Source: a virus. Taken from it: a stretch of 32,144 nt of DNA. The notes beneath the pieces are model-generated. The model saw only the letters and a list, made by a program, of their open reading frames with translations, made no database searches and had not been told where the DNA came from. Location of the stretch: IMG/VR virus record IMGVR_UViG_3300020411_002411, positions 1 to 32,144 of that record, one strand, 5' to 3'. Shown one piece after another: positions 1-13,822 of the stretch; position 1 is the stretch's first letter; every line of letters begins with the position of its first letter. The position numbers and the translations under genes are program-made.

Positions 1-1497
1 CAAATCGCCGCCAAGATCGCCACCTAAGCCGCCACCTTCGCCGGCTGCTGCAGCTTCTGCGACTGCTTGAAGTGCCGCATCATGCTTACGGTCGTAAAAC
101 ATTTCTCTTTGATTGCGCATAAATTCTTCATGCGACATTCCGAAGATGTTATCAGCAACCCAACGACGCGAGAAATAGCCTTCTGTTGCGGCGCCGGCAA
201 TATCGAACTTAGCCTTCCAATGTTCCAACTCTTGAAGCTCTGCGATTTTCGAGGGATTGTTTAACGATAGCTCGAAACCCAGCAGATCATCGCCTCTAAA
301 TCCAAGAGTATAAAGATGGATGATTCCAATCTTTGTAAGCTCTGCGATAATGACTCGCTGTAATCTTTGTATTGTTCTCGCGAATCGAATGTCTTTCTGT
401 GCGAGGGTTGTCTTATCTTCTTCACCGCCTTCACCCATCGTCAAATAAGACTGAGGAATTTTTAGTGCGGAGAATAGTTTATCTCGTAGATACTTGATAT
501 CGTCAATAGCAGTAATGTTTTGAGCGCCGGCCAGGCTTTGGATTTCAGTTGTCGAACCAGGGCGCACAGGAATAAAGTAATCTTCTTCAATGCTCATAGG
601 GTTGTAACGTAAATCTACACGGCCAGTATCTGGATCCATCACTTGATGTCTTTTGAGATTCGTTACGATTTTCTCCATGTATTGCTCGACATCTTGTGGA
701 GGAATACCGCCGACGTCAATCTTGAATACACGGCGTTCTGAGGAACGAATTACTCGGTAAGCCATCATAGCGTCTTCCATTAAAACTAACTGGCGCCAGA
801 TGCGACGAGCGGGCTCTAAAATTGATGTTCCATATGGAGCATACTTATCGTTTCCTAAGATTCGAAAATGACAAATCTGCCAGTTCTCAAAAGTCATTCC
901 AGCTGAGTTCCACTGGTATTGTAGGTAATTTGGATTTGTTGAGTCTTTACCTTCAAGTCTCTCAATCTCTTGAGCGGGAAGCGCTAGCACAGATGTCACG
1001 CCATACTTATCGTCGATGTCTAAGTAAAGAAAGAAATCTCCGTACTTGCACATAGTGCGAGCCCAACCGAATAGATTGTATTCGAGGTTGAGAATATTAC
1101 TAAACAATACTGCCAATACTGCTTTGATTTCTTCGTTTGGACAATTGATGTTTAACATTGGACGAAGAGCGGAATATGTTGTCATTTCGTCAGAGTAAAT
1201 ATCAAGAGCCGATGCAATTTCTGGCATATACTCCATCTGGTCGAAGTCAACGTATCGCTCAGAACGTCTTTGGTTTGCGATTGCATTTGTCGCTATAATA
1301 TCTAAAGGACTGTAAAGCGTCTTTTTAAACTGTTGTCCGGAGGCAGACTTAAATCTTGAGCTAAACTTATCTAGGTGTTGTCTGCGGATCTTTCGACCGG
1401 ATTGTGACCGGTAATTAATAATTGGTCCGGAGAACAATCTCGTAAGAGCTTTGAAAAGTTCTGATTGTCTATTTGCGGGGTTCTTATCAACTGGCAT
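1..1497 (-). CDS. gp20: Portal (head-tail connector) protein, T4 gp20-like, C-terminus off the left edge
   Basis: The frame stays open from the ATG at 1497 to the window edge, giving 499 visible residues; T4 gp20 has about 524, so little is probably missing. The N-terminus reads MPVDKNPANRQSELFKAL. Portal-like features are a segment with YMPEIASALDIYSDEMT, then GWARTMCKYGDFFLYLDI, then YAPYGTSILEPARRIWRQL, and a late segment with LKIPQSYLTMGEGGEEDKT. These fit the clip, wing and stem of myovirus portals of the T4 superfamily. Portals form a dodecameric ring at one capsid vertex and are the DNA channel and the docking site for terminase. The visible end becomes Ala- and Gly-rich (VAEAAAAGEGGGLGGDLGG). 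The gene lies 8 bp after the large terminase stop. The upstream GAG is only a weak ribosome binding site. In T4, sheath and tube genes separate 17 from 20; here nothing does. Confidence 0.93.
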   Translation of the reverse strand, partial: MPVDKNPANRQSELFKALTRLFSGPIINYRSQSGRKIRRQHLDKFSSRFKSASGQQFKKTLYSPLDIIATNAIANQRRSERYVDFDQMEYMPEIASALDIYSDEMTTYSALRPMLNINCPNEEIKAVLAVLFSNILNLEYNLFGWARTMCKYGDFFLYLDIDDKYGVTSVLALPAQEIERLEGKDSTNPNYLQYQWNSAGMTFENWQICHFRILGNDKYAPYGTSILEPARRIWRQLVLMEDAMMAYRVIRSSERRVFKIDVGGIPPQDVEQYMEKIVTNLKRHQVMDPDTGRVDLRYNPMSIEEDYFIPVRPGSTTEIQSLAGAQNITAIDDIKYLRDKLFSALKIPQSYLTMGEGGEEDKTTLAQKDIRFARTIQRLQRVIIAELTKIGIIHLYTLGFRGDDLLGFELSLNNPSKIAELQELEHWKAKFDIAGAATEGYFSRRWVADNIFGMSHEEFMRNQREMFYDRKHDAALQAVAEAAAAGEGGGLGGDLGGDL

Positions 1498-1505
1498 TTA
1501 TATTC

Positions 1506-3089
1506 TCACTTAATGATCCATTTATACTGATCGTACATCTTTTTTGCTTGTGTTATTTTATCAAGAGTATTGTCATTTTTGTAGCCTTTTTGACCTTTAA
1601 TTCTTGTATTCATGGTAGTTCTTGTAGTAATAATTGCGCTAGCGAAGGCTTTTTGATAATCTAAATTGCGCGCGTTTGCTTGAAGTGCTGTGTCTCTTAC
1701 CCAGCATGCAATCGCAAGTGCCATAATTAAATCATCATGATACCCTTTCATCGCTTGTGCTTTACCGTTCCTCCATATAAAAGTCTTCATTTCGTTAATA
1801 GTACGAGAAGAATATATGGTAATTAGTTTGTTTCTGATAAACTCCTCCAATTTGGCCACGATGAGGGGCCGCGTTTTCATAGAGGTGGTGAATCCGGGTA
1901 CCGCTGATGTTCTGACTTCCGCTTGATGTTGTTCGATATACTCGTGTGTGGATTTGATAGAGTGATAGACGTTTGGGTAGCCTTGTTCGATAAGTTTGCC
2001 TAAAACAGAATAGCCTATGTTGTTGTTTTCCACTACCAACATACAGCTACCATACTCTCTACCAGTTTGATCTAACATAGTAGCATACATGTCTAACGTT
2101 GGTTTTCCTTGGTATTCAGCTACAACTTCAAGTGTCTCAAGTTTTATAATGTGAAAAGTAGAATAATCAGCACCATCGCCACGTGCCACATCAGCCACCA
2201 TTAGATAATTGCATGTAGGATCATATTCTTCCCAAATCCAAAAGTTACGATCAAAGCCTGTTTTATATTTTGGCTCTGCAACATTACTGAGCAGCCACTC
2301 CATACACTCTGGATCAACGACTGTTTCTCCTGATGTGTTGAAGTTGCATTCAAGCTCTTGAGCAATTTGACGCTTTGACATGTTTTTGGTTTCTTTTTTA
2401 AACCACTCTTTGTCTCGGTCGGGGTGCACGTCCCACGGCAACGTTGTTAAATTAAAGTTGTTAGTGCCGGCGTCAGCATCTGTGCATATTTTATGAAACC
2501 AATTTCCGACGCCGTTTGGTGTGGAAAGTGCAATGCACCGACCACCTGTTGACAGCGTAGGATATAGACCGGTCCACAACTCTTCAAGTCCTTCAATATG
2601 TGCTGCCTCGTCCAGCACCAAAAGTGACAGCGCCTCAGAACGACCAGCATCGCCAGAAGTAGATGCAGCTTTAATTGAAGAACCGTTAGACAACTCAAAT
2701 GATGTACGGTTGTCCACTGTGATTGTTGCTATCTTCAGCCAATCGGGAAGATTACGCATAATGTTCTTGACTTTCTTGACCAAGTTTCCTGCGGTTGCAA
2801 ACTTAGTTGCCATAACAAGAATGGCCTTATCGCGATGAAACAACATCATCCATACAATATAGCCAGCAGTAATCGTTGATATTCCAAGCTGACGCGCTTT
2901 TAGAATAATATTAAAACGATAATCATTAAAGTCAGTGAGTAATTCATCTTGAAAGTCATAAGTGTTGAATAAAATTAACCCATGCATTGGGTGAGAGATT
3001 CTAGCATAATTGTTAAGAAAGTATACTGGATCCTTACCACACTTTAATATTTCTTGTACTCGTTGCGTTTTGTCTAGTTGAAAGCTCAT
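1506..3089 (-). CDS. terL: Terminase large subunit, T4 gp17-like (ATPase plus nuclease)
   Basis: This 527-residue DNA-packaging motor is close to the usual length for short T4-type large terminases (T4 gp17 is about 610). The ATPase domain shows a T4-style Walker A, KARQLGIST, at residues 64-72, a Walker B, SLLVLDEAAH, at about 155-164, and a coupling motif, ALSTPNG, at 187-193. The RNase H-like nuclease domain follows, with DVARGDGADYS (D300), VVENNNIG (E354) and GYHDDLIMALA (D452/D453) supplying the three acidic metal ligands. The enzyme cuts concatemeric DNA and pumps it through the portal encoded just downstream. The ATG at 3089 lies 8 bp after the previous stop and has little Shine-Dalgarno sequence, so translation may be coupled. 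No small terminase is recognisable by sequence; the 181-aa protein upstream is only a positional candidate. Confidence 0.97.
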   Translation of the reverse strand: MSFQLDKTQRVQEILKCGKDPVYFLNNYARISHPMHGLILFNTYDFQDELLTDFNDYRFNIILKARQLGISTITAGYIVWMMLFHRDKAILVMATKFATAGNLVKKVKNIMRNLPDWLKIATITVDNRTSFELSNGSSIKAASTSGDAGRSEALSLLVLDEAAHIEGLEELWTGLYPTLSTGGRCIALSTPNGVGNWFHKICTDADAGTNNFNLTTLPWDVHPDRDKEWFKKETKNMSKRQIAQELECNFNTSGETVVDPECMEWLLSNVAEPKYKTGFDRNFWIWEEYDPTCNYLMVADVARGDGADYSTFHIIKLETLEVVAEYQGKPTLDMYATMLDQTGREYGSCMLVVENNNIGYSVLGKLIEQGYPNVYHSIKSTHEYIEQHQAEVRTSAVPGFTTSMKTRPLIVAKLEEFIRNKLITIYSSRTINEMKTFIWRNGKAQAMKGYHDDLIMALAIACWVRDTALQANARNLDYQKAFASAIITTRTTMNTRIKGQKGYKNDNTLDKITQAKKMYDQYKWIIK

Positions 3090-3097
3090 TAATCATT

Positions 3098-3643
3098 TTA
3101 TTTTTTTCTTGTGTCGTTATTTGGTCGCTTTCCGCCATCGCCATTCCAACCGCCTTGTTCAAGAAAAGAACGCCAATCTCCATCGAGTGTTCGACTCTCA
3201 CGAGACTCAATGTTCATCTCTTCATCAAGTCCACCAACTTTGTAGTGTTTTTTTGCTTGAACCCAAGTTCTAACGCGGGATGTGTTTTGAACAAGCAAAT
3301 CTATCTCGCCTTCCTCAGTTAATGTTACAGAATCACCAGTAATCTTTTTGTACTCTTTCTTAAGCCATCCAGCAATATCAGTAAGGCGCTGATCCATCTC
3401 TTCTTCAAAGCCGCCGTCATACACTTCTTTTAACTGAATTTCAGATTGATAACTGAGGCACATAATATTGCCATAAAATTTGACGTTAAACCCGTCCATT
3501 ACTCTTTGGTCAATAAGTGCGTTTCCTTCTTCTCGGCGAAGAATACCGGGCTTATCAGGCTCATAATCTTCACCCAAAGCTCCGTCGTAAGCATTTGCTG
3601 CTGCTTGGGCTAGCCCTTGCACGATTTCATAAACTGTTGCCAT
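3098..3643 (-). CDS. Conserved-type phage protein of unknown function upstream of terminase
   Basis: This is a 181-residue soluble protein beginning MATVYEIVQGLAQAAANAYD. It has a central acidic helical part (QRLTDIAGWLKKEYKKIT), a segment VQNTSRVRTWVQAKKHYKVGG, and a basic, Asn/Gly/Lys-rich tail ending RPNNDTRKK. No catalytic motif, signal peptide or membrane helix is visible. Its ATG overlaps the preceding stop as TAATG, so it is translationally coupled to the 219-aa gene. Its position directly before the large terminase and its size are compatible with a small terminase subunit (T4 gp16 is about 164 aa), but it shows no clear helix-turn-helix and I do not claim that. I have an impression that this family recurs in uncultured marine phages, but I cannot name it. 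Confidence 0.8.
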   Translation of the reverse strand: MATVYEIVQGLAQAAANAYDGALGEDYEPDKPGILRREEGNALIDQRVMDGFNVKFYGNIMCLSYQSEIQLKEVYDGGFEEEMDQRLTDIAGWLKKEYKKITGDSVTLTEEGEIDLLVQNTSRVRTWVQAKKHYKVGGLDEEMNIESRESRTLDGDWRSFLEQGGWNGDGGKRPNNDTRKK

Positions 3644-4302
3644 TACTGGTCTCCTCGCATTTTCTTATACTCTAAATAGTGTTTAACTGAAGAAAGGTAA
3701 TCGGAAGCTTTGGTAATCTTTGCTTGAACCCACCCATCTAATTGTTCATCATCCATGATCATTTCTTCTAATTCTGCTGCATATTTGGCTGTTCGGTAAA
3801 GTTGTCCCTTGGCCATTCTTCCCTCAGAGTCGCTATCAGAATGCATATCTACTGCAACTGCTGGTTGTTGAACTACAGGTTCTCCACAGCCTTCAGATAC
3901 CGGGGATGCTGCTGCTTTTTCGTCTTCAGTTGGGTGGCGCGGTCCATCGCCGGGACCACCTAAGCCGCCGCCGGCTGGGCGTTCTTGCTTGGGAACAATT
4001 CGTTTTTGAATAACCCCTAAAATTGTTTGTAGTGTAGTGCGATGTTTCTGAAGTTCAACGCCGGGGAGTGCAGCCAAGTTTAAAAGAAACTGGTCGATTT
4101 TGTGGATAAGATCGCGTTCGTTATTATCAACTTCTCCGCTTACATCAGCGCGCTGTTCTTTTCCGCCAGTTGTAAACTGACCGCCTGTCATCATGCCCGT
4201 GCTAAGTTTGGTCGCGTCTTTTGAAGTAGGGTTTACAGACTTATCCTGTTCTGTTAAAATTTCTTTGATAGCTTCTTTGAGTTTTGCTTTGCTAATTTTC
4301 AT
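3643..4302 (-). CDS. Tagged protein (MKISKAKL tag), unknown function
   Basis: The 219-residue protein starts MKISKAKLKEAIKEILTEQD, one of four type-1 N-terminal tags in this window. A longer reading from 4377 exists, but 4302 is preferred: it is preceded by GGAGA at 4307-4311, overlaps the upstream stop by 11 bp, and places the tag at the N-terminus as in its relatives. After the tag comes a polar linker and then a helical block (IHKIDQFLLNLAALPGVELQ). A Pro/Gly-rich low-complexity stretch (AGGGLGGPGDGPRHP) and an acidic linker follow. The C-terminal part contains LDGWVQAKITKASDYLSSVK and looks like a small helical module. The phrase LPGVELQ-x-H also occurs in the tagged protein at 12496-13347, which suggests a shared domain. 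The function is unknown; the tag suggests capsid cargo (see findings). Confidence 0.82.
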   Translation of the reverse strand: MKISKAKLKEAIKEILTEQDKSVNPTSKDATKLSTGMMTGGQFTTGGKEQRADVSGEVDNNERDLIHKIDQFLLNLAALPGVELQKHRTTLQTILGVIQKRIVPKQERPAGGGLGGPGDGPRHPTEDEKAAASPVSEGCGEPVVQQPAVAVDMHSDSDSEGRMAKGQLYRTAKYAAELEEMIMDDEQLDGWVQAKITKASDYLSSVKHYLEYKKMRGDQ

Positions 4303-4675
4303 TTGGTCTCCATCCTTTTTCCCAGCGCTCTTCCCGATCTTCAACAAAGTTAACGTAGCATTTACTGCAACAATCAAACTTTACAAAACAAACATCGTCT
4401 AGAGCTTTCTGTGCACTTGCGCCACAAACGGAGCAATATCTTACAGACTCTCTACTAAGTAGTTTTTTTGATACTTTAATCCCATTAATGTCTACTTTCT
4501 CTTGCCACTCATCATTTTTGGTGTGCTTTTTGTAATGCTCTCGCATTTGTTTAAGATACTCTTTCTCTTTTTCAGGATCCCAATTTGCTCGGGGATTTTG
4601 GATGGCCTCAGTGCCATACTTTTCTGAAATTGCTTTCTCGATGCTGGCGATTCTATCTGGATTTTTACTGCTCAT
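4292..4675 (-). CDS. Zinc-ribbon protein of unknown function
   Basis: The protein has 127 residues when started at MSSKNPDRIASIEKAI. That ATG overlaps the previous stop by 11 bp; a longer in-frame start at 4708 would add 11 residues of unlikely sequence. The N-terminal half is charged and helical (GTEAIQNPRANWDPEKEKEY), followed by a Lys-rich linker. The C-terminal half has two Cys pairs, YCSVCG and CCSKCY, about 20 residues apart, which fit a four-cysteine zinc ribbon. It ends EERWEKGWRPNEN. A ribbon of this type could bind nucleic acid or a protein partner; nothing here indicates catalysis. The gene sits between the membrane/lysis-like cluster and the terminase, and the start of the next gene is nested in its last codons. 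Confidence 0.82.
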   Translation of the reverse strand: MSSKNPDRIASIEKAISEKYGTEAIQNPRANWDPEKEKEYLKQMREHYKKHTKNDEWQEKVDINGIKVSKKLLSRESVRYCSVCGASAQKALDDVCFVKFDCCSKCYVNFVEDREERWEKGWRPNEN

Positions 4676-5081
4676 TGAATAACCTATAGGCTGCGTATGT
4701 GGATACAATGCCGATTGCTATGCCGCCTGCAACCCACAACGCTCGATTTTGAGGGGATTGATTAAGCAGCGATTCTCTTAGTTGTGCAATTTCCAAATCT
4801 TTCTCCGTAATGCGCAAATCGTATTCTTCCTGTAGCGATTCTAATCGAATGTTTAGATTCGATAGTTCTAAGTCAAATTCGGCGCTTTGTCGCTGTAATT
4901 CATAGTTTAACGTAGCTTCACAATTTAGTTTAACACGTTCTTCTAATATTAGCAACTCTGCTGTTGCTTCTTTGTTAAATAACACACCTTCAAACGGTGC
5001 GCACTCATTTTCACCAAGAATGGTAAATTGTGGCTCGTCTGCATGGGCGATTCCCAATAAGAGCAGTAAACTAAGGAACAT
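4665..5081 (-). CDS. Secreted coiled-coil protein with C-terminal membrane helix, spanin-like partner candidate
   Basis: The 138-residue product begins MFLSLLLLLGIAHADEPQF, a good signal peptide with a likely signal peptidase I site after AHA. A long acidic coiled coil follows (about residues 40-100, LEERVKLNCEATLNYELQRQ onward). A single C-terminal transmembrane helix (ALWVAGGIAIGIVSTYAAY) ends in a short RLFNEQ tail. The start is the ATG at 5081, with AGGA at 5089-5092 seven bases upstream; the TTG two codons earlier lies too close to the AGGA. It overlaps the Rz-like gene by 11 bp. There is no lipobox, so it is not a classical Rz1 lipoprotein. A periplasmic coiled coil anchored at its C-terminus could pair with the Rz-like product. 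The position supports a lysis role, but this is inference. Confidence 0.8.
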   Translation of the reverse strand: MFLSLLLLLGIAHADEPQFTILGENECAPFEGVLFNKEATAELLILEERVKLNCEATLNYELQRQSAEFDLELSNLNIRLESLQEEYDLRITEKDLEIAQLRESLLNQSPQNRALWVAGGIAIGIVSTYAAYRLFNEQ

Positions 5082-5481
5082 ATTCAAATCCTAATATGTC
5101 TTCTATTTTGTCAGCTAATTCGTCTTTGTTTTCAGAGAACTGTTGGCGTTCGTCAATTTCTTCAATAATTCTTACGCGCTCTTCTTCAACTTCAGTTTCT
5201 ACCCGCTCTTGTTCTTCACGGTATTCTCGTTCTAAAACTTCTAATGCATCCTTGTAAGTTTGTAGCGCTTGTTCTTTTCGCCTTAATTCTTCTGCATGTA
5301 TATCTTGCAGACCTTGAATTTGGTTCTGTAAAGATTCTTCCGTGGCCTGGTATGCGTTTTCAAGCTGCTTATAATCATATCGCATCTTTGCCCATAAGCC
5401 AGTGCTTAAAACAAGAATGGCTACAAGTTTCCAATTAGCTCGTAGCCATCCAAGAAGTTTTAACCAATCAACTGAAATCAT
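5071..5481 (-). CDS. Rz-like inner-membrane spanin candidate
   Basis: This 136-residue protein has the architecture of an inner-membrane spanin: a short N-terminus (MISVDWLKLLGWLRANW), one N-terminal transmembrane helix (KLVAILVLSTGLWAKM, about residues 18-33), then an uninterrupted, highly charged coiled coil from about 35 to 125 (QNQIQGLQDIHAEELRRKEQ onward). Spanins fuse or disrupt the outer membrane at the last step of lysis of Gram-negative hosts. The identification rests on topology and neighbours: a two-helix membrane protein upstream and an exported coiled-coil protein overlapping its 3' end. Its ATG overlaps the upstream stop as ATGA. No endolysin is visible in the window, which weakens the argument that this is a complete lysis cassette. 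Confidence 0.75.
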   Translation of the reverse strand: MISVDWLKLLGWLRANWKLVAILVLSTGLWAKMRYDYKQLENAYQATEESLQNQIQGLQDIHAEELRRKEQALQTYKDALEVLEREYREEQERVETEVEEERVRIIEEIDERQQFSENKDELADKIEDILGFEYVP

Positions 5482-5675
5482 GCAACACCTTTTAATTTAG
5501 CAATTCCATCAATTACAGTTTGACCTCCGATATAAATGCCGGAGATAATAACCCAGTCTGAGGACTCTAGTCCAGCAAACACCATTAGTCCAGTAGCTGT
5601 TAACCATACCATAAACTTGCGCGAAATTATCTTTTCGACCAGTCTATCTAACTTAGCTTTTGTATAGCTCATCAT
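5478..5675 (-). CDS. Small two-helix membrane protein, holin-like
   Basis: The 65-residue product starts MMSYTKAKLDRLVEKIISRK, a basic amphipathic N-terminus, followed by two hydrophobic segments (FMVWLTATGLMVFAGL at about 21-36 and WVIISGIYIGGQTVIDGI at about 41-58). Size, topology and position next to the Rz-like gene fit a small holin, which would permeabilise the inner membrane at lysis. Many small phage membrane proteins look alike, so holin is a positional guess. GAGAGG precedes tandem ATG codons at 5675 and 5672, and either may be used. Its stop overlaps the next start as ATGA. Confidence 0.72.
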   Translation of the reverse strand: MMSYTKAKLDRLVEKIISRKFMVWLTATGLMVFAGLESSDWVIISGIYIGGQTVIDGIAKLKGVA

Positions 5676-5684
5676 AAGCGCCTC

Positions 5685-5843
5685 TCAAAGACACTGTAGC
5701 CATTGACCAAGCAGTACTGCTCCGCCGGTAACAATCCACCATGGCAAGCGCTGAACACCAGCGGCTACCTCATCTTTCACAGCAGCTGCTGTGTCTAATG
5801 CTAAATTCTTGGCACCAAGTGCCACTTTTGTTAAAAGTTCCAT
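5685..5843 (-). CDS. 52-aa small membrane protein
   Basis: This short gene reads MELLTKVALGAKNLALDTAA, then an amphipathic helix (AVKDEVAAGVQRLP), then a hydrophobic C-terminus (WWIVTGGAVLLGQWLQCL). It begins at the ATG at 5841-5843, which overlaps the stop of the 212-aa tagged gene as TAATG. It ends with TGA at 5685-5687, nine bases before the holin-like gene. The exact TAATG coupling, the coherent amphipathic/hydrophobic design and the otherwise empty 160-bp gap support a real gene. It may be a second membrane component of the lysis-like cluster; the function is unknown. Confidence 0.68.
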   Translation of the reverse strand: MELLTKVALGAKNLALDTAAAVKDEVAAGVQRLPWWIVTGGAVLLGQWLQCL

Positions 5844-6481
5844 TACTTTTCTCCTTTGGGCTCTTTCATTGGCCCTTTACACATTTCTTCTGCTTCTGCT
5901 TTTGATAAACCTTCTGGTCTTTCATCTGCAGTTGCATCTTTCATTGCGCACATATATCTTCTTTGTTTGTCTGAATAAACTTCTCTCAGTTCCTCACCTA
6001 AATCTTCAGCTACTTCTATTGCTATCTCTTTGGCTAATTTTCCATCTAAATACTCATCATAATAATTATGGGTGTCGGGTAGTTCGTCTTCGCGAACATA
6101 TACACCAAGCGCATTGAGATGTCCGATTAGTTGCCCAGTCCAATCATAAAATTTTGGATCAACTCCAGACAATCCCTCTAGTTCTTCTTGGATCATTTTC
6201 TCTAGGGTTTCTCTAACGTCTTGTTGATTTACACGCTGCTTAGGTCGATAACCTTTTCCAAGCATGGCTTGTCCGAGTCCGATAGAAGTTGGAGATTCAC
6301 CAGTAAAGGCTGCGGAAAGATAATCAATACTTACATCAAGCTCACTAATACCACTGATAAGTTCGTTAATAGATTTGAGAAGCGCTTGGCCGATCTCGTC
6401 GCTAAATGTTTCTTCACTTAACAAGAACTGGTCAGCTTCTTGTTTGATAATCTCCATCAATTTTGTTTTGGTAATTTTCAT
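5843..6481 (-). CDS. Tagged protein (MKITKTKL tag), acidic, unknown function
   Basis: This 212-residue protein starts MKITKTKLMEIIKQEADQFL, a type-1 tag followed directly by LLSEETFSDE. The body is acidic and helical (QALLKSINELISGISELDVS). It contains RVNQQDVRETLEKMIQEELE and a segment DWTGQLIGHLNALGVYVRED. The C-terminal part has a Cys pair (YMCAMKDAT and EEMCKGPMK) and ends in a Lys/Glu-rich tail PMKEPKGEK. No enzyme motif is visible. Its start overlaps the stop of the 44-aa membrane gene as ATGA. The tag is shared with the proteins starting at 13347, 6830 and 4302, but the bodies do not resemble each other, so the tag seems to be a portable address rather than part of a domain. Confidence 0.82.
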   Translation of the reverse strand: MKITKTKLMEIIKQEADQFLLSEETFSDEIGQALLKSINELISGISELDVSIDYLSAAFTGESPTSIGLGQAMLGKGYRPKQRVNQQDVRETLEKMIQEELEGLSGVDPKFYDWTGQLIGHLNALGVYVREDELPDTHNYYDEYLDGKLAKEIAIEVAEDLGEELREVYSDKQRRYMCAMKDATADERPEGLSKAEAEEMCKGPMKEPKGEK

Positions 6482-6612
6482 TGTAAGATGATTCCTGTCA
6501 ATAAAGTAATTAGAGCGCCTAATGTTGCAAGAGCAAAAAGAGCGTAAGATATATCATTCCAAGTAACTCCTCGCCAAGAAAGCCAATCGTTTAATCGACG
6601 CCACCACTTCAT
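6478..6612 (-). CDS. 44-aa single-helix membrane protein
   Basis: The product reads MKWWRRLNDWLSWRGVTWND and then ISYALFALATLGALITLLTG with IILQ at the end. This is a Trp/Arg-rich cytoplasmic head followed by one strong transmembrane helix. The ATG at 6610-6612 overlaps the upstream TAA as TAATG, and its TGA overlaps the next start as ATGA. It therefore fills the whole gap and is coupled on both sides, which is strong support for a gene this short. The positive-inside rule puts the N-terminus in the cytoplasm. A membrane anchor, holin or antiholin function are all possible and the sequence does not decide. Confidence 0.72.
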   Translation of the reverse strand: MKWWRRLNDWLSWRGVTWNDISYALFALATLGALITLLTGIILQ

Positions 6613-6830
6613 TACACATAAATCCCTAACAGATGAAGCATATCATGAAATGCATCCTCAACAGATTCAGGCAAAGTTCCGGCGTCCACAGCTTGTCCTA
6701 CAAGAGTATAGGCGTCTTGAAACCTGTCTCTATCCTCGTAAGATATATCAATTTCTGGCTCATCAAAGAGTCCTTCTTTGGCGATTTCTTCTGCGATGAT
6801 TTGTTTAAGTTTTTGTGTTGTGGTTTTCAT
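6612..6830 (-). CDS. Small tagged protein (MKTTTQKL tag), unknown function
   Basis: This 72-residue acidic protein starts MKTTTQKLKQIIAEEIAKEG. The tag carries IIAEE, the closest match in the window to the FIAE end of the T4 capsid-targeting sequence. The body is short and helical (EDRDRFQDAYTLVGQAVDAG, then VEDAFHDMLHLLGIYV). The start codon is contributed by a 27-bp direct repeat (6826-6852) that also carries a six-codon mini-ORF, MNGLAT, whose TGA overlaps this ATG. Translation may therefore be coupled to that mini-ORF. The gene ends in TAATG with the 44-aa membrane gene. The function is unknown. Confidence 0.78.
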   Translation of the reverse strand: MKTTTQKLKQIIAEEIAKEGLFDEPEIDISYEDRDRFQDAYTLVGQAVDAGTLPESVEDAFHDMLHLLGIYV

Positions 6831-6852
6831 GTCGCTAATCCATTCATACTTA
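6826..6852. repeat. 27-bp direct repeat, copy 1
   Basis: Identical to 7205-7231 (plus strand begins ttcatgtcgctaatccattc). This copy supplies the TAA stop of the 119-aa gene, a mini-ORF MNGLAT and the ATG of the 72-aa gene. A 27-bp exact match is far beyond chance for this window. Confidence 0.95.
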
Positions 6853-7209
6853 TTCGTCTCCTAACGCTTCCAGTTCATAACCAAATTCCGTACTATAGTC
6901 GGCAAGATCGCCAGTGCGATCCATTTCGCGCTCGGCGGCAGCGATTGCCTGTTCCAAGCCACTTTGAAAACTTTCAGGAGTTGTAAATCTCGCGATAACT
7001 CTATCATCATGACGATGATCTATAATGTAGACGTATGGACTATCAACTCCTTGTCCTGTCTGTATGTCTGCATAAAAAGGAAGCTGTCCTCCTTCGGGAT
7101 CCGTCAAAGTATTAAACCCGCTAACAAGGTCTTCAAAGGGATTTGGTGGGTCTATAGGTAGCGCCTCTTCTTTTAGGTACCTGTTCCAATTTTCAAATAG
7201 TTTATTCAT
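6850..7209 (-). CDS. Tagged protein (LFENWNRYLKEE tag), 119 aa, probable inserted cassette
   Basis: The start is the ATG at 7207-7209 (ATGA overlap with the tubulin-like gene). A longer reading from 7293 runs through the tubulin coding region and is rejected. The product begins MNKLFENWNRYLKEEALPID, a type-2 tag also seen at the start of the ParB-like protein. A Pro-rich linker follows, then a compact region (PFYADIQTGQGVDSPYVYII then DHRHDDRVIARFTTPESFQS) and an acidic C-terminus ending ELEALGDE. No known fold is recognised. The gene is bracketed by the two copies of a 27-bp direct repeat, 379 bp apart, which suggests it was inserted between the tubulin-like gene and the 72-aa gene. Confidence 0.8.
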   Translation of the reverse strand: MNKLFENWNRYLKEEALPIDPPNPFEDLVSGFNTLTDPEGGQLPFYADIQTGQGVDSPYVYIIDHRHDDRVIARFTTPESFQSGLEQAIAAAEREMDRTGDLADYSTEFGYELEALGDE

Positions 7210-7231
7210 GTCGCTAATCCATTCATACTTA
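7205..7231. repeat. 27-bp direct repeat, copy 2
   Basis: Identical to 6826-6852. Here it encodes the last residues of the tubulin-like protein (SMNGLAT plus stop) and the ATG of the 119-aa gene. Since it is coding in this place, this is probably the parental copy. Confidence 0.95.
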
Positions 7232-8339
7232 GTATCGCAATCAGACCGGGCACATTCTTTCTGACATAAACGCCAGAGAAAAGTGTCTCGCATCGACCGC
7301 CGACATAAGCGATTGCCGACTCAATGTTTTTGCTAACACGAGGGTCAGCTACCATTTCTTCTGAGACTACTAAAACTAATGAACCGGCTGCAGCTTTGCC
7401 CTTGGGTGGAGGACATGCAGAACGATTCATGCAGTTGTGAAGGATCACCGATCCAAGCTTTCCAGTATTTGGATCTTTTATCATGGTTGAGCCAAGAAAG
7501 GCTCTCCCGTCATTACCCAAGCAGGTTTCCAGATCTTTACTATCAAAAGATTGGATCGGTGAGTCCTCTGTGGAGAGTTTTAACACCTGGGCAAAAGATT
7601 TTGCAAATTGTGTATTGGCGACAGGATACATGCCTAACATGCCGATTCTGCCGCGAAGTAAGCGGGTGGCTCTTTCATTATCTAAAATAATATGCGGATG
7701 CTGTGTAACATCGTTTGCTAGCGTCAACGCATTGCGAGCGATTGTGGGGTTAAGATTTTCTTGTGCTGTCGGCCAAGAAACTACATAGACAATTTTGCCC
7801 GAGGATTGGACAGAGCGCATATAACGCTCAAACACAGGATGAAGAGCAGTAACGGAACTGCCTGTACCGCCACCTCCCCCAGCAAAAACAAATAACCAAT
7901 CGACTTTTCCAAGTTTGATGCGGAGAGCATCTTCAACAATTGCTCCATTTTGACTTAAAACCTCTTTTCCGTAATCTACGTTTTTGCCAATTCCATCAGA
8001 ATCGGGAATAAGGACAACGTGGTCCTCTTCGACATTTTTTGGAATGTCTTTGCCTGTTGTGTTAACAAGCAACGTTTTGTTAAAACCAAGCTCAATAAAA
8101 GCATTGGCCATTTTATTGCCTCCACCGCCGACGCCAACAAAACCAACGTTAATCGAAGACGGAGCAGTGTTCTCGGGTAAAAGATCTTCGTCAGAATATT
8201 CCATCTGAAGCCCAAAGTCTTCAACCATCCCAAAATCGGCAGCTTCTACCTCTTCGTGATAGTGGTCTTTTTCTTGTGTGAAAGAAGGTGGCGGCTCTGC
8301 GGGTGGCAGAAAATCAAACTCATTATCTTTTCCGGACAT
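7206..8339 (-). CDS. Tubulin/FtsZ-superfamily GTPase
   Basis: The 377-residue protein has a unique acidic, Pro-containing N-terminal extension of about 62 residues (NEFDFLPPAEPPPSF onward), then a tubulin/FtsZ GTPase core. The first nucleotide loop is VGFVGVGGGGNKMANAF (about 65-81), and VNTTGKDI (92-99) matches the ANTDxQAL region of FtsZ. The signature loop is AGGGGGTGSS (153-162). YVVSWPTAQEN and IILDNERATRL follow. The catalytic T7 loop is SFDSKDLETCL (264-274), which keeps both acidic residues, followed by GRAFLGSTM. An active, polymerising GTPase is therefore likely. Phage tubulins (PhuZ, TubZ) position the replicating genome or segregate plasmid prophages. There is no long charged C-terminal tail of the PhuZ type. 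AGGA precedes the ATG. It sits just downstream of a ParB-like gene. Confidence 0.9.
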   Translation of the reverse strand: MSGKDNEFDFLPPAEPPPSFTQEKDHYHEEVEAADFGMVEDFGLQMEYSDEDLLPENTAPSSINVGFVGVGGGGNKMANAFIELGFNKTLLVNTTGKDIPKNVEEDHVVLIPDSDGIGKNVDYGKEVLSQNGAIVEDALRIKLGKVDWLFVFAGGGGGTGSSVTALHPVFERYMRSVQSSGKIVYVVSWPTAQENLNPTIARNALTLANDVTQHPHIILDNERATRLLRGRIGMLGMYPVANTQFAKSFAQVLKLSTEDSPIQSFDSKDLETCLGNDGRAFLGSTMIKDPNTGKLGSVILHNCMNRSACPPPKGKAAAGSLVLVVSEEMVADPRVSKNIESAIAYVGGRCETLFSGVYVRKNVPGLIAILSMNGLAT

Positions 8340-8350
8340 ATATTATTCCT

Positions 8351-9310
8351 TTATTCTGCTGCTTTTCTATCTGTTGCGAATGGCGATCTAAAATCTATTT
8401 TACCCTTTTCAAGAGGCTTAAGTGCTGCAGGCGTATCTCCACCAGCAGTTACTTTGGAGCCGGCCGGTGCATCAGTCTGTGGCATTGGTTCTCTACTAGT
8501 TGCACCGCTTACGGGCCTGTTGTTCTGCCTCATTTGTGCAACGTTACGAGTGTAAATATAAGAAAGTGCTCTTTCTACCGCCTGCTCTTTTCCGGCTTCG
8601 CCAACACCTCGTTGATCACGCTTTTGTTGTCGACCGGTTTCAACATCTTCATTCATGCCGTCTTTTAAAAGTCCAAGCTGAATATATTGTTGTGCAAGTT
8701 CGGGTGTGACAATTTCCATAATCTTCTGATTCAAAGTTTTTTCATCAATGGTAAACAAGTTAATTCCGCCTCCCTCGTTAGAGGGAACCGAACCAGCATA
8801 TGCCTTGATTGACGCTTGAAGGAGCTTTAGGGCATTAGTTGGGCTAACTGGCAACTTAATGTTAAATGCGTACATTTGCGCATTTGGATTAACACAGAAC
8901 AAAGAAGACCATCGATGGTGTCCGTCCAAGACGTACTTACCGTTCAAAACGACAATTGCATCATTTCCAGCAGGCCCAACTTTAAATGGTCCATCTGATT
9001 TATAATATTCCATAAAAACTTTTGGCCTCGTTAGAGCAAAGGGAATTGATTTTTTAAACACAACTTCAGCCTGTGTTGGTCTTAAATCGGAACACCTTAC
9101 AGTCGTAGGCTCAATAGATACCATATCATCTTTTTGATTGCCGTCTTTTGAACCGGCTAAAATTGTTTGTATTAGTTCTTTTTTATTAGACTGCATGGCG
9201 GCTACAAACTGCGGTAGCGACATCTGCAAAAGATCAGATGATGATACACCTCCTGCGGCTTCTTCTTGCTCGTTTAAAAATTTGTTCCATCTTTCCATTA
9301 ATAGTTTCAT
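8351..9310 (-). CDS. ParB/sulfiredoxin-fold protein with N-terminal tag
   Basis: This 319-residue protein begins MKLLMERWNKFLNEQEEAAG, a type-2 tag. The core (about 80-170) has the ParB/sulfiredoxin-like arrangement: TVRCSDLRPTQAEV, FMEYYKSDGPF, then NGKYVLDGHHRWSSLFCVNP. The latter matches the family's D-G-x-H-R motif, which in relatives binds or hydrolyses nucleotide or acts in ParB-like nucleases. The C-terminal third is low-complexity (GVGEAGKEQAVERAL, then Pro/Gly/Thr-rich) and ends KIDFRSPFATDRKAAE. Its ATG overlaps the stop of the Mre11-Rad50 gene as TAATG, and the tubulin-like gene follows 11 bp later. It could be a DNA-binding partner of the tubulin homologue, a nuclease or a packaged effector; the sequence does not choose. 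Confidence 0.8.
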   Translation of the reverse strand: MKLLMERWNKFLNEQEEAAGGVSSSDLLQMSLPQFVAAMQSNKKELIQTILAGSKDGNQKDDMVSIEPTTVRCSDLRPTQAEVVFKKSIPFALTRPKVFMEYYKSDGPFKVGPAGNDAIVVLNGKYVLDGHHRWSSLFCVNPNAQMYAFNIKLPVSPTNALKLLQASIKAYAGSVPSNEGGGINLFTIDEKTLNQKIMEIVTPELAQQYIQLGLLKDGMNEDVETGRQQKRDQRGVGEAGKEQAVERALSYIYTRNVAQMRQNNRPVSGATSREPMPQTDAPAGSKVTAGGDTPAALKPLEKGKIDFRSPFATDRKAAE

Positions 9311-12300
9311 TATTGATTAACCCTTGCGTATCCGCGTTTTTTATCTATAACGATTTGCATGTCAACACAGTCCTTGAGCGAATCAAGATGAGAGATTAAC
9401 AAAACGTTCTTAAAATACACTTTAATTAGTTCCAAGATCCGAATAAAACCCTCCATATTTTCTTCGTCCAAGGCAGTGCCAGGCTCATCAAGAATAAAAA
9501 TGTCTGATTTTGGCAGTGATGAGACACTTAAAAGTGAAAGCCGAATTGCCATTGCAGCCATTGTTTTCTCTGCTCCTGACGCCATTTCAATTGGTCGCTC
9601 ATCGTACTGTGGATGTTTGATAAAGATATCAAACTTATTTCCAGAGCTTTCAAAGAAGACTTCGAAGTCAACAATATTGGCCAACACCTTTGCAATTTCT
9701 TGATTGATTACTGGAATCTTCTTTTTGATAACATCATAAGCAATGCCATTTGGATGCATACATTGCATAAACAAGTCGTAAGCTGCAAACGAACTGCGAA
9801 GGTTGTGGTGCTCTCGCTTGTTTTCTTGTAGTGTTTCTAGTCGCTGTTCGCAACTGCCAACTAGCTTGACCAACTCCAAAGTTTGTTCTTCGCAATTACT
9901 AATTTTTGTCTTCTTTTTTTGTGCTGCATTTTGTAGTTCTTTTTTCTCCGTTAAGAGCTTCTCAAGATTCTCGATTGCTTCTTTGTTTTCTTCATACTCT
10001 TCAATCTTTTCAGATATATCTCGCAACGCAAGTTCAATCTTAGACTTAACAGTCTTATTGCGTTCTCTTTCTAGTTCCAATTGAGTAGTTTCGCTTTCAA
10101 CTTTAGCAATGAGTTCAGTTGTGCGACTGTGCTCCATAAGCTGTGTAAGCACATCTGCAGGATTAAGCTCCGACAAGTCTGTTGCAATATTTTGCAACTC
10201 ATAAGCAGCTAGCTCTTTGCTTGCAACTGCTATATGTGCTTCTTTAACAAACTTGTTTTCGCAGCAGTAGTGGCAATCTGGATCATACTCATGCTCTTCT
10301 AATAGCTTTTCCTTCTTATTGATATCTGACAACTCTTCTTTAAGTGCCTTTTCTTTCTCATAAAGCTTGTCTATTTGTTTCTGCAGTTTCATAAGTTTTC
10401 CTATGTCAACTCCTTCTACTTTTTTCCTAGAACTTTTAACGACACTTTTCTTTCTGTTAAGCTCTTCAGACTGTTCCTTTATCGATTCCATAAGAGATTG
10501 AACTTTGTTGTTTTTAGACTTCTTTTCTTCGCGTAACTGTGCGATATCAATAAGCTCGTTCGGAATAGCATCAATCTGAGATTCTAATGCTGCAAGGTTG
10601 ACCTCTATCGTATCCAATTCACCCTTTAAAGTATTACAGAATGTTTTGTTATTCGATACGTCAATTCGACATTGAGCTAGTGTATCGTTTGTCTGTTCGA
10701 TTTCTTCATCGTAATTTTTGTTCTCGTGTTTCTTCAGCAAGACTTTTGCTTCGACAGAATCATCTTTGGCCATCTTAAACTTTCTTTCGAAAACTTCCAA
10801 GTCGAGAAACTTAGCGATGATTTCTTTGCGACGGGTCGAGCCTTCATCAATAAATGCAAGTGCGCCGTGCTGAGAAGCCAGGGAAGACACAGAAAAATCA
10901 TCCATAGACCCAAAGTGCTTTCTAATATTTGCATCTGTCTGATTGCGTGTCGTGCCATTAAGAGAAGTTACTTCGTCTGTGACTTGATCATACACTTCGA
11001 AGTTTAGATCTGTCTTAGCTTCTAGTGTTTCTTCGCCTTTCAGCCTCTTTACATACTTCTCGGATTTTCTCTCAATTGTATAAGTCTTGTTGTTTGACTC
11101 AATGGTAAGCTTTCCGCGACAGTCTTCTTTGTTTTGATTTATAACGTTTAGATTCTTTCGTTCGTTTTTAGATGTAGTGTTGAAAAGCGTATAAAGGACC
11201 GCATCAATAATAGAACTCTTTCCAGAAAAGTTCTTTCCGAAGATTCCAATGATTCCGCTTAACCGATCAAAATCAACAGTATTGCCTTCGCCATAATTAA
11301 ACAGATTGTCAAATTCAAAGGATTTAAGCTTCCAATTAATATTGCGCGCTATCTCCTCTTTCTCTTCAATAATTTTATTATAAGTACGATTTAACTCGTA
11401 AACTTTTTCCATCGTGTCAGCAGGCACCTGATAGTCCTTAAGGTACTCATCCATGAGTTCCTCTTGTATCTTTGGGTCTCGCAGGTTTTCTGTCTTCAAT
11501 CCGTCAGTAATGTTCTCGACATTTCCACGTTCACCGCTGGCGCGATTCAAGAACGAAATGCTTTCTGGTTGAAAACGATGCTTGGCAATGTCCATTGCTC
11601 TGCGCATTACATCGAGAGGCAGATTGTTATTGCTGACTAGTCGAAGCCTTGCGCCTGTTGGCACTTGAAGGTTTCGTGGCATTCGTCCTTTCATTGTCAA
11701 AGGAATAGTAAAGAACGGTTTAGGATTCTTAAATACAATCGGTTCAATATCCCATTCATCTTTTGACTTAATATCCCATATAAGAATACCTTTGTCGTTA
11801 GTCTCGCCATGATTCTGCTGTACAGTAGAGCCAGCATACCACACACGGCCAGCTTCATCAAGAAACTGGCGACGGTGAATATCGCCAAGCATTGCGAAAT
11901 CATGGTCGTCAAAAATTGTAATTGTATCTTCTCCGTTGACCATGGTCCAGCCAACATCAGTTTTACAGTTGCTAATAGAGCCGTGATAAAGTGCAATGTT
12001 GATCTTGTTTGGATCTGTAGGCTTTGTCCAGTTTTCTCGATCAAACACTGAAAGTACATTTAGACAGAACTTGTCGTCTAGACATGTCTCGCCAGAGTCC
12101 TTTAGCAGATGAAGATGCTGCAAGTCTAGCGCATCTACAATTGGTGTAAGTGCGTCTTGCCTGCTGCTATTCTTTAGATTGCCGTCGTGATTACCTAAAA
12201 TGATATACGTAGGCGCAATCGTCGCTAAGTTTCGGAAGAAGTCCGAACACATGTCAACAAACTCGGGTGAGATTTGTGTTTTCGTGTGTGCGATATCACC

Positions 12301-12426
12301 GCAGTGAACGATATAATCGACTTCTTTTTCTCGTAATGTTTCGTATAGTTGTTCAAAAACAACTTTGTATTCGTAATGATACTTCAAATTTTTGATATGA
12401 GTATCGCTTATATGGGCAAACTTCAA
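9310..12426 (-). CDS. Fused Mre11-Rad50 (SbcD-SbcC; T4 gp47-gp46) nuclease/ATPase
   Basis: One uninterrupted 1038-residue frame joins two proteins that are normally separate. Residues 1 to about 340 are a calcineurin-like phosphoesterase with ISDTH (6-10), CGDI (42-45), GNHDG (78-82), YHGS (147-150) and GDIH (181-184), the metal-binding set of Mre11/SbcD. A linker leads to the Rad50/SbcC ATPase. It has Walker A FGKNFSGKSS (396-405), a long coiled coil, a zinc-hook apex C718-H-Y-C721, a second coil, the ABC signature SGAEKTMAAMA (about 947) and Walker B DIFILDEP (D980, E981). The complex resects DNA ends for recombination-dependent replication and repair. The start is TTG, supported by GGAGGG at 12430-12435 and by the family's usual N-terminus. 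A consensus promoter lies just upstream. Confidence 0.96.
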   Translation of the reverse strand: MKFAHISDTHIKNLKYHYEYKVVFEQLYETLREKEVDYIVHCGDIAHTKTQISPEFVDMCSDFFRNLATIAPTYIILGNHDGNLKNSSRQDALTPIVDALDLQHLHLLKDSGETCLDDKFCLNVLSVFDRENWTKPTDPNKINIALYHGSISNCKTDVGWTMVNGEDTITIFDDHDFAMLGDIHRRQFLDEAGRVWYAGSTVQQNHGETNDKGILIWDIKSKDEWDIEPIVFKNPKPFFTIPLTMKGRMPRNLQVPTGARLRLVSNNNLPLDVMRRAMDIAKHRFQPESISFLNRASGERGNVENITDGLKTENLRDPKIQEELMDEYLKDYQVPADTMEKVYELNRTYNKIIEEKEEIARNINWKLKSFEFDNLFNYGEGNTVDFDRLSGIIGIFGKNFSGKSSIIDAVLYTLFNTTSKNERKNLNVINQNKEDCRGKLTIESNNKTYTIERKSEKYVKRLKGEETLEAKTDLNFEVYDQVTDEVTSLNGTTRNQTDANIRKHFGSMDDFSVSSLASQHGALAFIDEGSTRRKEIIAKFLDLEVFERKFKMAKDDSVEAKVLLKKHENKNYDEEIEQTNDTLAQCRIDVSNNKTFCNTLKGELDTIEVNLAALESQIDAIPNELIDIAQLREEKKSKNNKVQSLMESIKEQSEELNRKKSVVKSSRKKVEGVDIGKLMKLQKQIDKLYEKEKALKEELSDINKKEKLLEEHEYDPDCHYCCENKFVKEAHIAVASKELAAYELQNIATDLSELNPADVLTQLMEHSRTTELIAKVESETTQLELERERNKTVKSKIELALRDISEKIEEYEENKEAIENLEKLLTEKKELQNAAQKKKTKISNCEEQTLELVKLVGSCEQRLETLQENKREHHNLRSSFAAYDLFMQCMHPNGIAYDVIKKKIPVINQEIAKVLANIVDFEVFFESSGNKFDIFIKHPQYDERPIEMASGAEKTMAAMAIRLSLLSVSSLPKSDIFILDEPGTALDEENMEGFIRILELIKVYFKNVLLISHLDSLKDCVDMQIVIDKKRGYARVNQ

Positions 12427-12429
12427 ATT

Positions 12430-12435
12430 CCCTCC
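12430..12435 (-). promoter_or_regulatory. Strong Shine-Dalgarno deciding a TTG start
   Basis: GGAGGG on the minus strand, three bases before TTG at 12424-12426. No in-frame ATG competes near the conserved KFAHISDTH start. Confidence 0.85.
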
Positions 12436-12458
12436 AGGCGCAAGTATGCTACTACTAT

Positions 12459-12487
12459 ATCATAACCCATCGCAAGGGCACTGTCAA
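12459..12487 (-). promoter_or_regulatory. Consensus sigma70-type promoter
   Basis: On the minus strand, TTGACA (12482-12487) is followed by exactly 17 bp and TATGAT (12459-12464). The -35 is perfect and the -10 differs from TATAAT at one base. It lies in a 69-bp intergenic gap, and transcription would start near 12452, giving a leader of about 25 bases with the GGAGGG site. This implies host RNA polymerase transcribes the recombination/ParB/tubulin genes early, separately from the upstream structural genes. Confidence 0.88.
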
Positions 12488-12495
12488 GGGTTTTT

Positions 12496-13347
12496 TTACT
12501 CTAGACCGTAGCCCTTCTTGATGTTCTCGCCAGCGGCCGGCAATAACGATGCAGCCATATCAGCAAGTCTTTTCATGTCTTCGGGATCACCAGTATCTAA
12601 GCCCATAATCAAGTCAATAATTTCTTTGCGAACTGATTCAGGATGTTCTGCGATGCCTGCGCTAGCTAAAGTTTGAATTGCATCTTGTGATGGGCGTCTT
12701 CTTGCTGTTCTATAATCAGCCTCCATCATAGGAGCGTCAGCATCGGTAGCATTATGTTCTTCTAATGTTCTCAAGAACAACGCTAACAATTCTAATTGCG
12801 TACTTCCAATTCTACGAAAGTCTCCTGCGGCTGCAGCTTCGGCTGCTTCTGCTAGTTTTCTTGCAATTCGTCTTTTAATCTGTCCAACTTCTAATCCGCC
12901 ATATCCAGGCACCAATACTTCAGCGTCATCAGGCGTTGCTGAATCTTCTTGTGCGCCGGCATAAAGAGGACCTTCGTCGCCATATTCAACTTCCATCAAC
13001 TGTCGGATTTCTTCTTGGATAATGTAAACCAATTGCTCTCGGAATCCAATCTGCTGGCCAGCTGATGCAGCTTCTTCTTCCTCGCCGCGATCAAAGCCGA
13101 TCATTTGACGGCTAGTAACTTCTTCTTCCTCTTCTGGTGCGTCGTGCATTTGTAATTCTACGCCTGGAAGCTGGCGAAATACCTTTTCAAATACATCTGA
13201 TACGTCTTCAGGTGGCATGCCATCTACTAGACCAGCAATTCCTCCGACAAGATTCTCTAATGGAAGCCCACTAATTTCTTCTTCTAGAAGTTCTTTGAGT
13301 TGTTCTTCTTCTATAATTCTTCTAAGTTGTGATTTTGTAATTTTCAT
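12496..13347 (-). CDS. Tagged protein (MKITKSQL tag), very acidic, unknown function
   Basis: The protein has 283 residues when started at the ATG at 13345-13347, four bases after the upstream TAG. The longer reading from 13368 adds MAPGTSK, whose codons overlap the previous gene. It begins MKITKSQLRRIIEEEQLKEL, the clearest type-1 tag in the window, continuing as LLEEEIS. A helical segment with VFRQLPGVELQMHDAPEEEE resembles the LPGVELQ-x-H phrase of the 219-aa tagged protein. A Glu-rich linker, a second helical part (REQLVYIIQEEIRQLMEVEY) and an Ala-rich helical domain (KRRIARKLAEAAEAAAAGDF) follow. It ends AAGENIKKGYGLE. There is no enzyme motif. A packaged internal or core-like protein is a reasonable hypothesis. 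Confidence 0.82.
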   Translation of the reverse strand: MKITKSQLRRIIEEEQLKELLEEEISGLPLENLVGGIAGLVDGMPPEDVSDVFEKVFRQLPGVELQMHDAPEEEEEVTSRQMIGFDRGEEEEAASAGQQIGFREQLVYIIQEEIRQLMEVEYGDEGPLYAGAQEDSATPDDAEVLVPGYGGLEVGQIKRRIARKLAEAAEAAAAGDFRRIGSTQLELLALFLRTLEEHNATDADAPMMEADYRTARRRPSQDAIQTLASAGIAEHPESVRKEIIDLIMGLDTGDPEDMKRLADMAASLLPAAGENIKKGYGLE

Positions 13348-13351
13348 TTTG

Positions 13352-13822
13352 CTAGTTCCAGGCGCCATAGGCTCTTAAAACATTACGAGAAAAGCTTTCC
13401 TTTTTGACACCTTTGTTCATCAGAGCCCTTACGGCATTTTTTAAATCAGCTACAATTTGAATGCCCAACATGTCTACAATTCGATTAGTTTGAGAATCTT
13501 CTTTTGGACCCTTCCAATCAGCAGCTAACATTAATGCCAAAATTTGATCAGGTGGCAAGCCATGAAGATATTGAGCCGACGCCATCATAATCCCACCGGT
13601 GTAGCCAGCGCTGGAGTCGCCAGCTGAAACACGTTCAGCCGCATCGCGCATATTTTGATAAGCTGCCTCGTCGGTCGCAGTCATTCCGCCTGGGGTCAAC
13701 CCTCTGCCCACAAAAGCAGCTGCATCTCTAACCGCCCTAAAAGGACCTTCATCTAATCTCTCCATCTTCTCGTCCATAAAATAACGAGGGTCAACAAACT
13801 TTGTATTTTTTCTGCGGGCCAT
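13352..13822 (-). CDS. 156-aa protein with a third N-terminal tag type
   Basis: The protein starts MARRKNTKFVDPRYFMDEKM and continues ERLDEGPFRAVRDA. A basic head is followed by FVDPRYFMDE, which I treat as a third kind of portable N-terminal element. The rest is Ala/Gly/Met-rich and helical (GYTGGIMMASAQYLHGLPPD, then NRIVDMLGIQIVADLKNAVR) and ends LRAYGAWN. There is no catalytic motif, membrane helix or Cys cluster. It lies between the primase and the MKITKSQL gene, nine bases after the primase stop, with an AGGAGA ribosome binding site before its ATG. The function is unknown. Confidence 0.8.
   Translation of the reverse strand: MARRKNTKFVDPRYFMDEKMERLDEGPFRAVRDAAAFVGRGLTPGGMTATDEAAYQNMRDAAERVSAGDSSAGYTGGIMMASAQYLHGLPPDQILALMLAADWKGPKEDSQTNRIVDMLGIQIVADLKNAVRALMNKGVKKESFSRNVLRAYGAWN

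Follow-up and report, generated by a model that had tools for sequence, protein, structure and literature searches.

Interchangeable N-terminal tags on unrelated proteins of uncultured marine T4-like phages are probable capsid-targeting propeptides

In phage T4, the protease gp21 cleaves after L/I-x-E, and the short capsid targeting sequence uses residues 4 and 7 for targeting, with processing at residues 8 and 10; this sequence has been suggested as a possibly general loading route of T4-like phages (PMC9026906). T4 Alt, an ADP-ribosyltransferase packaged in the head, has a short propeptide that is cut off and is ejected into the host (PMC9026906). Many inner-head proteins of phiKZ and SPN3US are trimmed by a gp21-like protease behind a short motif whose last residue is E, and several of the mature proteins are candidates for ejection (PMC9026906, PMC5694885). 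Here we analyse a viral fragment of 32,144 bases from IMG/VR (IMGVR_UViG_3300020411_002411), called the window, in which a first-pass annotation had pointed to seven unrelated proteins with short N-terminal tags of three types. These tags are very likely capsid-targeting propeptides of the T4 kind, strongly diversified.

All seven proteins are encoded by the minus strand and start with ATG at 13347, 6481, 4302 and 6830 (type 1), 9310 and 7209 (type 2) and 13822 (type 3), and every N-terminus agrees with the one first quoted. The bodies are indeed unrelated. From residue 28 on there is no significant mutual similarity among the seven, and the best body-body match spans 27 residues with E=0.008 (database of seven proteins). 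Position-specific scoring matrices (PSSMs) were built with one tag per body family, using family representatives. In the window, scores are 25.7-41.6 bits for the four type-1 genes and 31.8 and 35.8 bits for the two type-2 genes; shuffled N-termini (n=8,280) reach 4.8 bits at most. Scores are nearly bimodal in two whole relative genomes, with tagged genes mostly at 17-56 bits and the others at ~6 bits or less; the one exception among the untagged genes resembles a frame artefact.

The type-1 pattern had no match in 34 unselected viral contigs of 40-358 kilobases (kb), obtained with a 14-mer because a random 16-mer gave too few, and the same pattern read backwards had none in tag-bearing genomes. 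Chance resemblance is ruled out by these two controls and by the comparison of PSSM scores with shuffles. The type-2 pattern had no match in bacterial and archaeal genomes (84,980 species). In cultured phages, tblastn found no convincing match to types 1 and 2, while the same kind of search with the T4 tag found 303 records. As for position, type-1 PSSM matches above 20 bits are N-terminal in 387 cases, internal in 18 and C-terminal in 4, and 128 of the 155 type-2 cores are preceded by an ATG at a distance of exactly 4 codons. The tags thus stand, like the T4 sequence, at the N-terminus of otherwise unrelated proteins.

The degenerate type-1 pattern and the type-2 pattern have at least 120 IMG/VR matches each, and the protein counts given here refer to the fetched stretches. 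These contain at least 377 unique type-1 and at least 271 type-2 proteins, with bodies in 377 families by single linkage, of which 291 are singletons. Type 3 is present once in the window, and in relatives it stands on 27 proteins of 21 body families. The description of the tag as a portable address is therefore borne out, since the bodies span hundreds of families. The condition named for refuting it, tags that always belong to one homologous domain, does not hold, as a single domain behind the tags is excluded by the body clustering. The tag itself dominated iterative profile searches with type-2 bodies. A BLAST check for untagged relatives mostly re-fetched copies of the same tagged genes, and the counts make no use of this check. 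In one relative (G034:6848-10784), five type-2-tagged genes form a run that is interrupted by a single untagged gene; their bodies differ and include a kinase-like and a HAD protein.

Nine body families are mixed, carrying both type 1 and type 2. The clearest pair has its junction at LxE, with MKITKRQLKQIIKEELSNALNE/GAVPHSAHHVVKK in one protein and MKKLFENWRKHLNE/AAVPHSAQHVVKK in the other (..SNALNE/GAVPHSAHHVV and FENWRKHLNE/AAVPHSAQHVV; a slash marks the predicted cut). A second clear pair is MKITKSQLKQIIKEEIGSIIE/GDGQVSNMGG and MKKLFENWRKHLNE/GDGQVSNMGG (..GSIIE/ and ..HLNE/). In these clearest pairs, the body alignment begins at the predicted cut, so that the mature proteins would be alike after cutting. 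This is hard to explain unless the tags share a job and are removed there. In the remaining pairs, the common part is only the inner or C-terminal body. Swaps between type 3 and type 1 also occur, one of them with its junction at E14. Within the tags, residues are fixed and synonymous codons vary widely (six codons for R, six for L), which indicates that the protein sequence is what is kept.

The tag consensus is MKITKSQLKQIIKEEL..VLNE/ for type 1, MKLLFENWRKYLNE/ for type 2 and MARRKNTKRFDPRYFMDEKTEIIKE/ for type 3. Conservation stops at [I/L/V/M]-x-E, which is the T4 gp21 cleavage rule; the motif used, [ILVM]-x-E, is slightly wider than the T4-type [I/L]-x-E. For type 2, E14 has 4.32 bits of information and the next two positions have 1.08 and 0.59; for type 1, the value drops from 1.28 bits at E22 to 0.33. 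In type-1 families, [ILVM]xE with the residue before the cut (P1) at 21-22 is found in 53%, compared to 5% in shuffles, and anywhere at residues 17-25 in 71%, compared to 19%. Type 3 has P1 at residue 25 in 56% of proteins and in 2% of shuffles. As these P1 positions were found and counted on the same data, the contrast with shuffles carries the weight and not the exact percentage. The tags thus end at a protease-type [I/L]-x-E site, as in T4.

The quoted tag extents needed revision. The motifs are there, but type 2 has MKLL or MNKL before the motif, type-1 conservation runs to residue 22 and not to 14-15, and that of type 3 extends to residue 25. The proposed type-1 cut at residue 14 is doubtful, as the main conserved [ILVM]-x-E lies at residue 22, 21 or 18. 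Type-1 tags are usually ~22 residues long, and their cut is probably at residue 18-23.

The tags have much in common with the tag of T4 IPI, IPII and IPIII (MKTYQEFIAEA): both are short and N-terminal, stand on unrelated small proteins, end in [IL]-x-E and occur in genomes with the same protease family. Type 2 shows the same order, aromatic-x-x-aromatic-L-x-E, matching T4 residues 4, 7, 8 and 10. At the targeting positions it has W and Y/F at matching spacing, which types 1 and 3 do not. Type 1 had been described as reproducing the T4 spacing; its sequence is a different one, and only the cleavage rule at its end is the same. Types 1 and 3, together with two further classes described below, have other sequences than the T4 tag and lengths of ~18-25 residues. 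There are also short intermediate forms, for example MKAFKEYLEE. In total, 279 proteins have the T4-like spacing aromatic-x-x-aromatic-[LIVM]-x-E at residues 1-25, compared with 20 at residues 26-50 and 8 at 51-75; of the 279, 77 differ from the FENW form that was used to fetch part of the loci. The number of body families also differs, with hundreds here and three for the T4 internal protein tag. T4 Alt is one protein, whereas here many enzyme types stand under a shared tag. The SPN3US propeptides, often longer than 100 residues, and the S/A-x-E motif of phiKZ are both unlike the tags seen here.

The nearest cultured terminase is that of Flavobacterium phage immuto (48% identity), which has the same head-gene order of terminase, T4-type portal, prohead core protein protease and gp23. 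This phage (vB_FspM_immuto, host Flavobacterium sp. LMO8), the nearest isolate, has repeated N-termini of its own (MENFDLKKFLVENKLTTNSKILKE, MKKQILSEQFRRMQKLAGIITE, MKKSQLRQIIKEAL), of which several lie upstream of the terminase, and its tags are mostly other ones. The FDLKKFL tag is present in four copies and the RMQKLAG tag in two, with predicted cuts after ..ILKE and ..IITE. In the fetched stretches, the first immuto class is found on 74 proteins of 35 body families and the second on 61 proteins of 39 body families. In the first class, P1 of [ILVM]-x-E falls at one of two adjacent positions in ~91%, and conservation drops there; in the second, [ILVM]-x-E is part of the search pattern. Since the immuto classes show the same drop at [ILVM]-x-E, the system extends beyond the clade of the window.

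Furthermore, a gp21-type protease is present in the relatives. Peptidase_S77, the gp21 family, was found in 38 of 50 large tag-bearing contigs, and a gp21-type protease in all 36 tag-bearing contigs with a Gp23-type capsid gene; unselected large contigs gave matches in 4 of 34, three of them partial, to a 644-residue protein. A look for such a protease left of the portal gene had been proposed; the window itself ends before that region. The T4-type portal gene (1..1497, minus strand) is truncated by the end of the record, which is why no gp21-type protease is visible; in relatives it lies a few genes downstream of the portal, and in the window it would sit just beyond the left end. In ~30 tag-bearing contigs, the capsid protein has a conserved ELL[RK]E/ at the place of the gp23 cut in T4 (cut position from PMC9026906 and general knowledge).

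The co-occurrence of tags and gp21 is expected for T4-like phages and is weak evidence on its own. More telling is the slot directly after the protease, where genes with a type-1 or type-2 tag are frequent (for example MSKYSSFKKDKLIFENWRKYLSE and MKLTKAQLKKLIKEELQNTLQEG). Among the terminase relatives, tags are found on 13-50% of the genes within 12 kb upstream of the terminase. No tagged gene lies between the terminase and a point 4 kb past its start, and the share is 9% at 4-6 kb downstream, which is the region of the protease slot. A conserved small gene near the protease (G018:70992-71381 and equivalents) starts with MKKSELKKVIKPLVKECIHEVLIEEG; it is type-1-like by eye, scores below the PSSM threshold, and may encode a prohead core protein.

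Most type-1 bodies have no Pfam family match. Among type-2 bodies (101 proteins), we found protein kinase, Nudix, DnaJ, guanylate kinase, HD, nucleotidyltransferase, cytidylyltransferase-like, AAA_33, alpha/beta hydrolase and ParB_N domains, each in one or two proteins. HAD and GNAT are other enzyme domains among tagged bodies, and some enzyme families, such as the HAD nucleotidase, occur both tagged and untagged. By analogy with T4 Alt and IPI, the enzyme bodies suggest a cargo that serves when the next infection begins.

One of the tagged proteins of the window is ParB-like (8351..9310, minus strand, 319 residues), with an invariant DGHHRW, and is a putative cargo. It had no match in Pfam. 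In a structure-based search, ParB/Noc/sulfiredoxin folds rank first, with a best E of 0.046, a weak assignment. Its family occupies the protease-adjoining slot in several contigs (L132, L169, L083, L342) and is the second gene after the protease in L049. Elsewhere the family adjoins a tubulin gene, has type-2 or type-1 tags and keeps DGHHRW. In three members (L342, L010, L549), type-1-like helices are also seen towards the C-terminus, recalling the two-ended processing of T4 Alt (PMC9026906).

The tag sequences and their boundaries, the swaps, the gene position and the protease of the relatives are the observations on which the propeptide reading is built. The N-terminal helix or aromatic segment would bind the prohead core during head assembly, and any protein behind a tag would thereby be packed into the prohead. 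The gp21-type prohead protease would then cut after the [I/L/V/M]-x-E that ends the tag and free the mature body inside the head. There are several tag classes (types 1-3 and two in Flavobacterium-type T4-like phages), between which bodies move freely, and the enzyme bodies would be cargo for the start of the next infection. In its broad lines, the initial interpretation of a portable capsid-targeting tag cut by a gp21-type protease is supported by every test made here, whereas the T4 spacing of type 1 and its cut at residue 14 are not borne out.

Several observations weigh against this reading. Type 2 had been said to reproduce the spacing of the T4 tag. It does so, but the type-1 and type-2 PSSMs fail to recognise the tag of T4 IPII and IPIII (-19 to -37 bits), and the type-2 likeness is accordingly one of spacing and not of sequence score. 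In 29% of type-1 families there is no [ILVM]xE at residues 17-25, and nearly all keep I-x-E14. The residue after the predicted cut is often E, where T4 IPII and IPIII have A. One relative (G010) has a T4-type portal and no detectable gp21 or gp23 in a fragment of 125 kb, and the gp21 co-occurrence is in part a consequence of the restriction of the tags to T4-like phages. Core binding, cutting, packaging and ejection are themselves steps that we infer from sequence.

A milder departure would accept the same targeting and cutting, with the tags as core-binding segments of scaffold or structural proteins whose bodies build the head and are not delivered. We regard this as possible but unlikely. 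Many type-1 bodies are short and without family match, and the conserved near-protease gene starting with MKKSELKKVIKPLVKECIHEVLIEEG.. looks type-1-like, though below the type-1 PSSM threshold. On the other hand, core builders should be conserved and the body repertoire is highly variable; it includes kinase, Nudix, J-domain, HD, guanylate kinase and GNAT proteins, and some of the enzyme families also occur untagged. This enzyme repertoire favours cargo over scaffold, with delivery as an inference from it.

The tags could also be docking helices for another assembly or compartment, such as a replication or tubulin-linked structure, with the terminal LxE a coincidence of helix composition. Type 1 does resemble an amphipathic helix, and in the window, as in several relatives, there is a tubulin/FtsZ homologue among the tagged genes. 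However, the different tags have only the terminal [ILVM]xE in common, far above shuffles, the clearest swap junctions fall at the LxE glutamate, and the slot after the prohead protease contains tagged genes, which makes this improbable. Least likely by far is that gene conversion at the 5' ends of genes has spread the tags as recent DNA copies, which would act as a translation leader or recombination handle and be selected as DNA. Multiple copies per genome, often in tandem arrays, would fit such an origin, but the residues are fixed under wide codon variation and conservation ends at the cleavage rule; the codon diversity already disfavours a DNA copy effect.

Beyond the propeptide reading itself, we lean slightly towards a broader view, in which uncultured marine T4-like phages have a general address-and-cut system. 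A few interchangeable tags and one protease would allow nearly any protein to be loaded and delivered to the next host. Sequence alone would suffice to list the resulting arsenal, made up of hundreds of enzymes and effectors that travel in the virion and are exchanged rapidly. With the T4 capsid targeting sequence, a system of this kind is already known. The diversity of classes, the swapping at the cut site and the size of the cargo are apparently undescribed, as far as an open-access search shows, and that search found no paper on these motifs. Tags on hundreds of proteins in uncultured relatives suggest a large hidden cargo delivered into bacteria. If so, a tag profile with the L-x-E rule would make head-borne phage proteins readable from metagenomes alone, and hundreds of unassigned genes would become candidate injected effectors (anti-defence, host take-over). 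The T4 tag would be one case of a diversified system, and the tags would offer new addresses for loading proteins into phage heads.

In terms of individual tags, all on the minus strand, the type-3 tag MARRKNTKFVDPRYFMDEKMERLDE (13748..13822) has its predicted cut after E25 (L-D-E/G). It begins a protein of 156 residues (13352..13822) without assigned function, whose orthologue in L255 has 85% identity over 130 residues. The type-1 tag MKITKSQLRRIIEEEQLKELLE (13282..13347; 41.6 bits with the type-1 PSSM) has [ILVM]xE at 14, 19, 22 and 23, among others, with the predicted cut after E22 (L-L-E). Its protein of 283 residues (12496..13347) has no match in Pfam or PHROG and no assigned function. 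The type-2 tag MKLLMERWNKFLNE of the ParB-like protein (9269..9310; type-2 PSSM, 31.8 bits) would be cut after E14 (L-N-E/Q). The other type-2 tag, MNKLFENWNRYLKE (7168..7209; 35.8 bits), has a predicted cut after E14 (L-K-E/E) and begins a protein of 119 residues without assigned function (6850..7209), for which a longer open frame from 7293 is also present.

The three remaining tags are of type 1. For MKTTTQKLKQIIAE (6789..6830; 33.2 bits), the sole consensus site is I-A-E14, and the protein behind it (6612..6830, 72 residues) has no assigned function. The tag MKITKTKLMEIIKQEADQFLLSE (6413..6481; 35.4 bits) has its predicted cut after E23 (L-S-E/E). Its protein of 212 residues (5843..6481) has a C-terminal KQRRYMCAM module that is shared with other type-1 proteins. 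This module (KQRRYMCAM..RPEGLS..EAEEMC) is found again at the ends of tagged proteins that are different in all other parts; over its length, the window protein and its matches in L026 and L097 have 79% identity. Finally, MKISKAKLKEAIKEILTE (4249..4302; 25.7 bits) would be cut after E18 (L-T-E/Q); its homologues terminate in VLRE/Q and VLVE/S, and a gene at the same place in G025 in VLKE/A. The protein of 219 residues (3643..4302) has no assigned function.

The minus strand of the window holds all relevant genes, running from structural genes (~32 kb to 15 kb) through a primase-like gene and the tagged island (13.8-3.6 kb) to terminase and portal. The T4-type large terminase (1506..3089, minus strand) has the tagged island directly upstream. 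Terminase and portal are in T4-like order, as in a T4-like phage. At least 599 relatives of the terminase are present in IMG/VR, with best identities of 85-89%, and the portal family is also present in the relatives G018 and G034.

Lastly, two further proteins are encoded on the same strand. The tubulin/FtsZ homologue (7206-8339) lies among the tagged genes and is itself untagged (Pfam Tubulin, E 8e-9; best PDB relatives FtsZ, E 2.5e-10), and similar proteins adjoin tagged genes in L251, L274, L288 and G018. At 9310-12426, a single protein of 1,038 residues fuses SbcD- and SbcC-like (gp47/gp46) parts.

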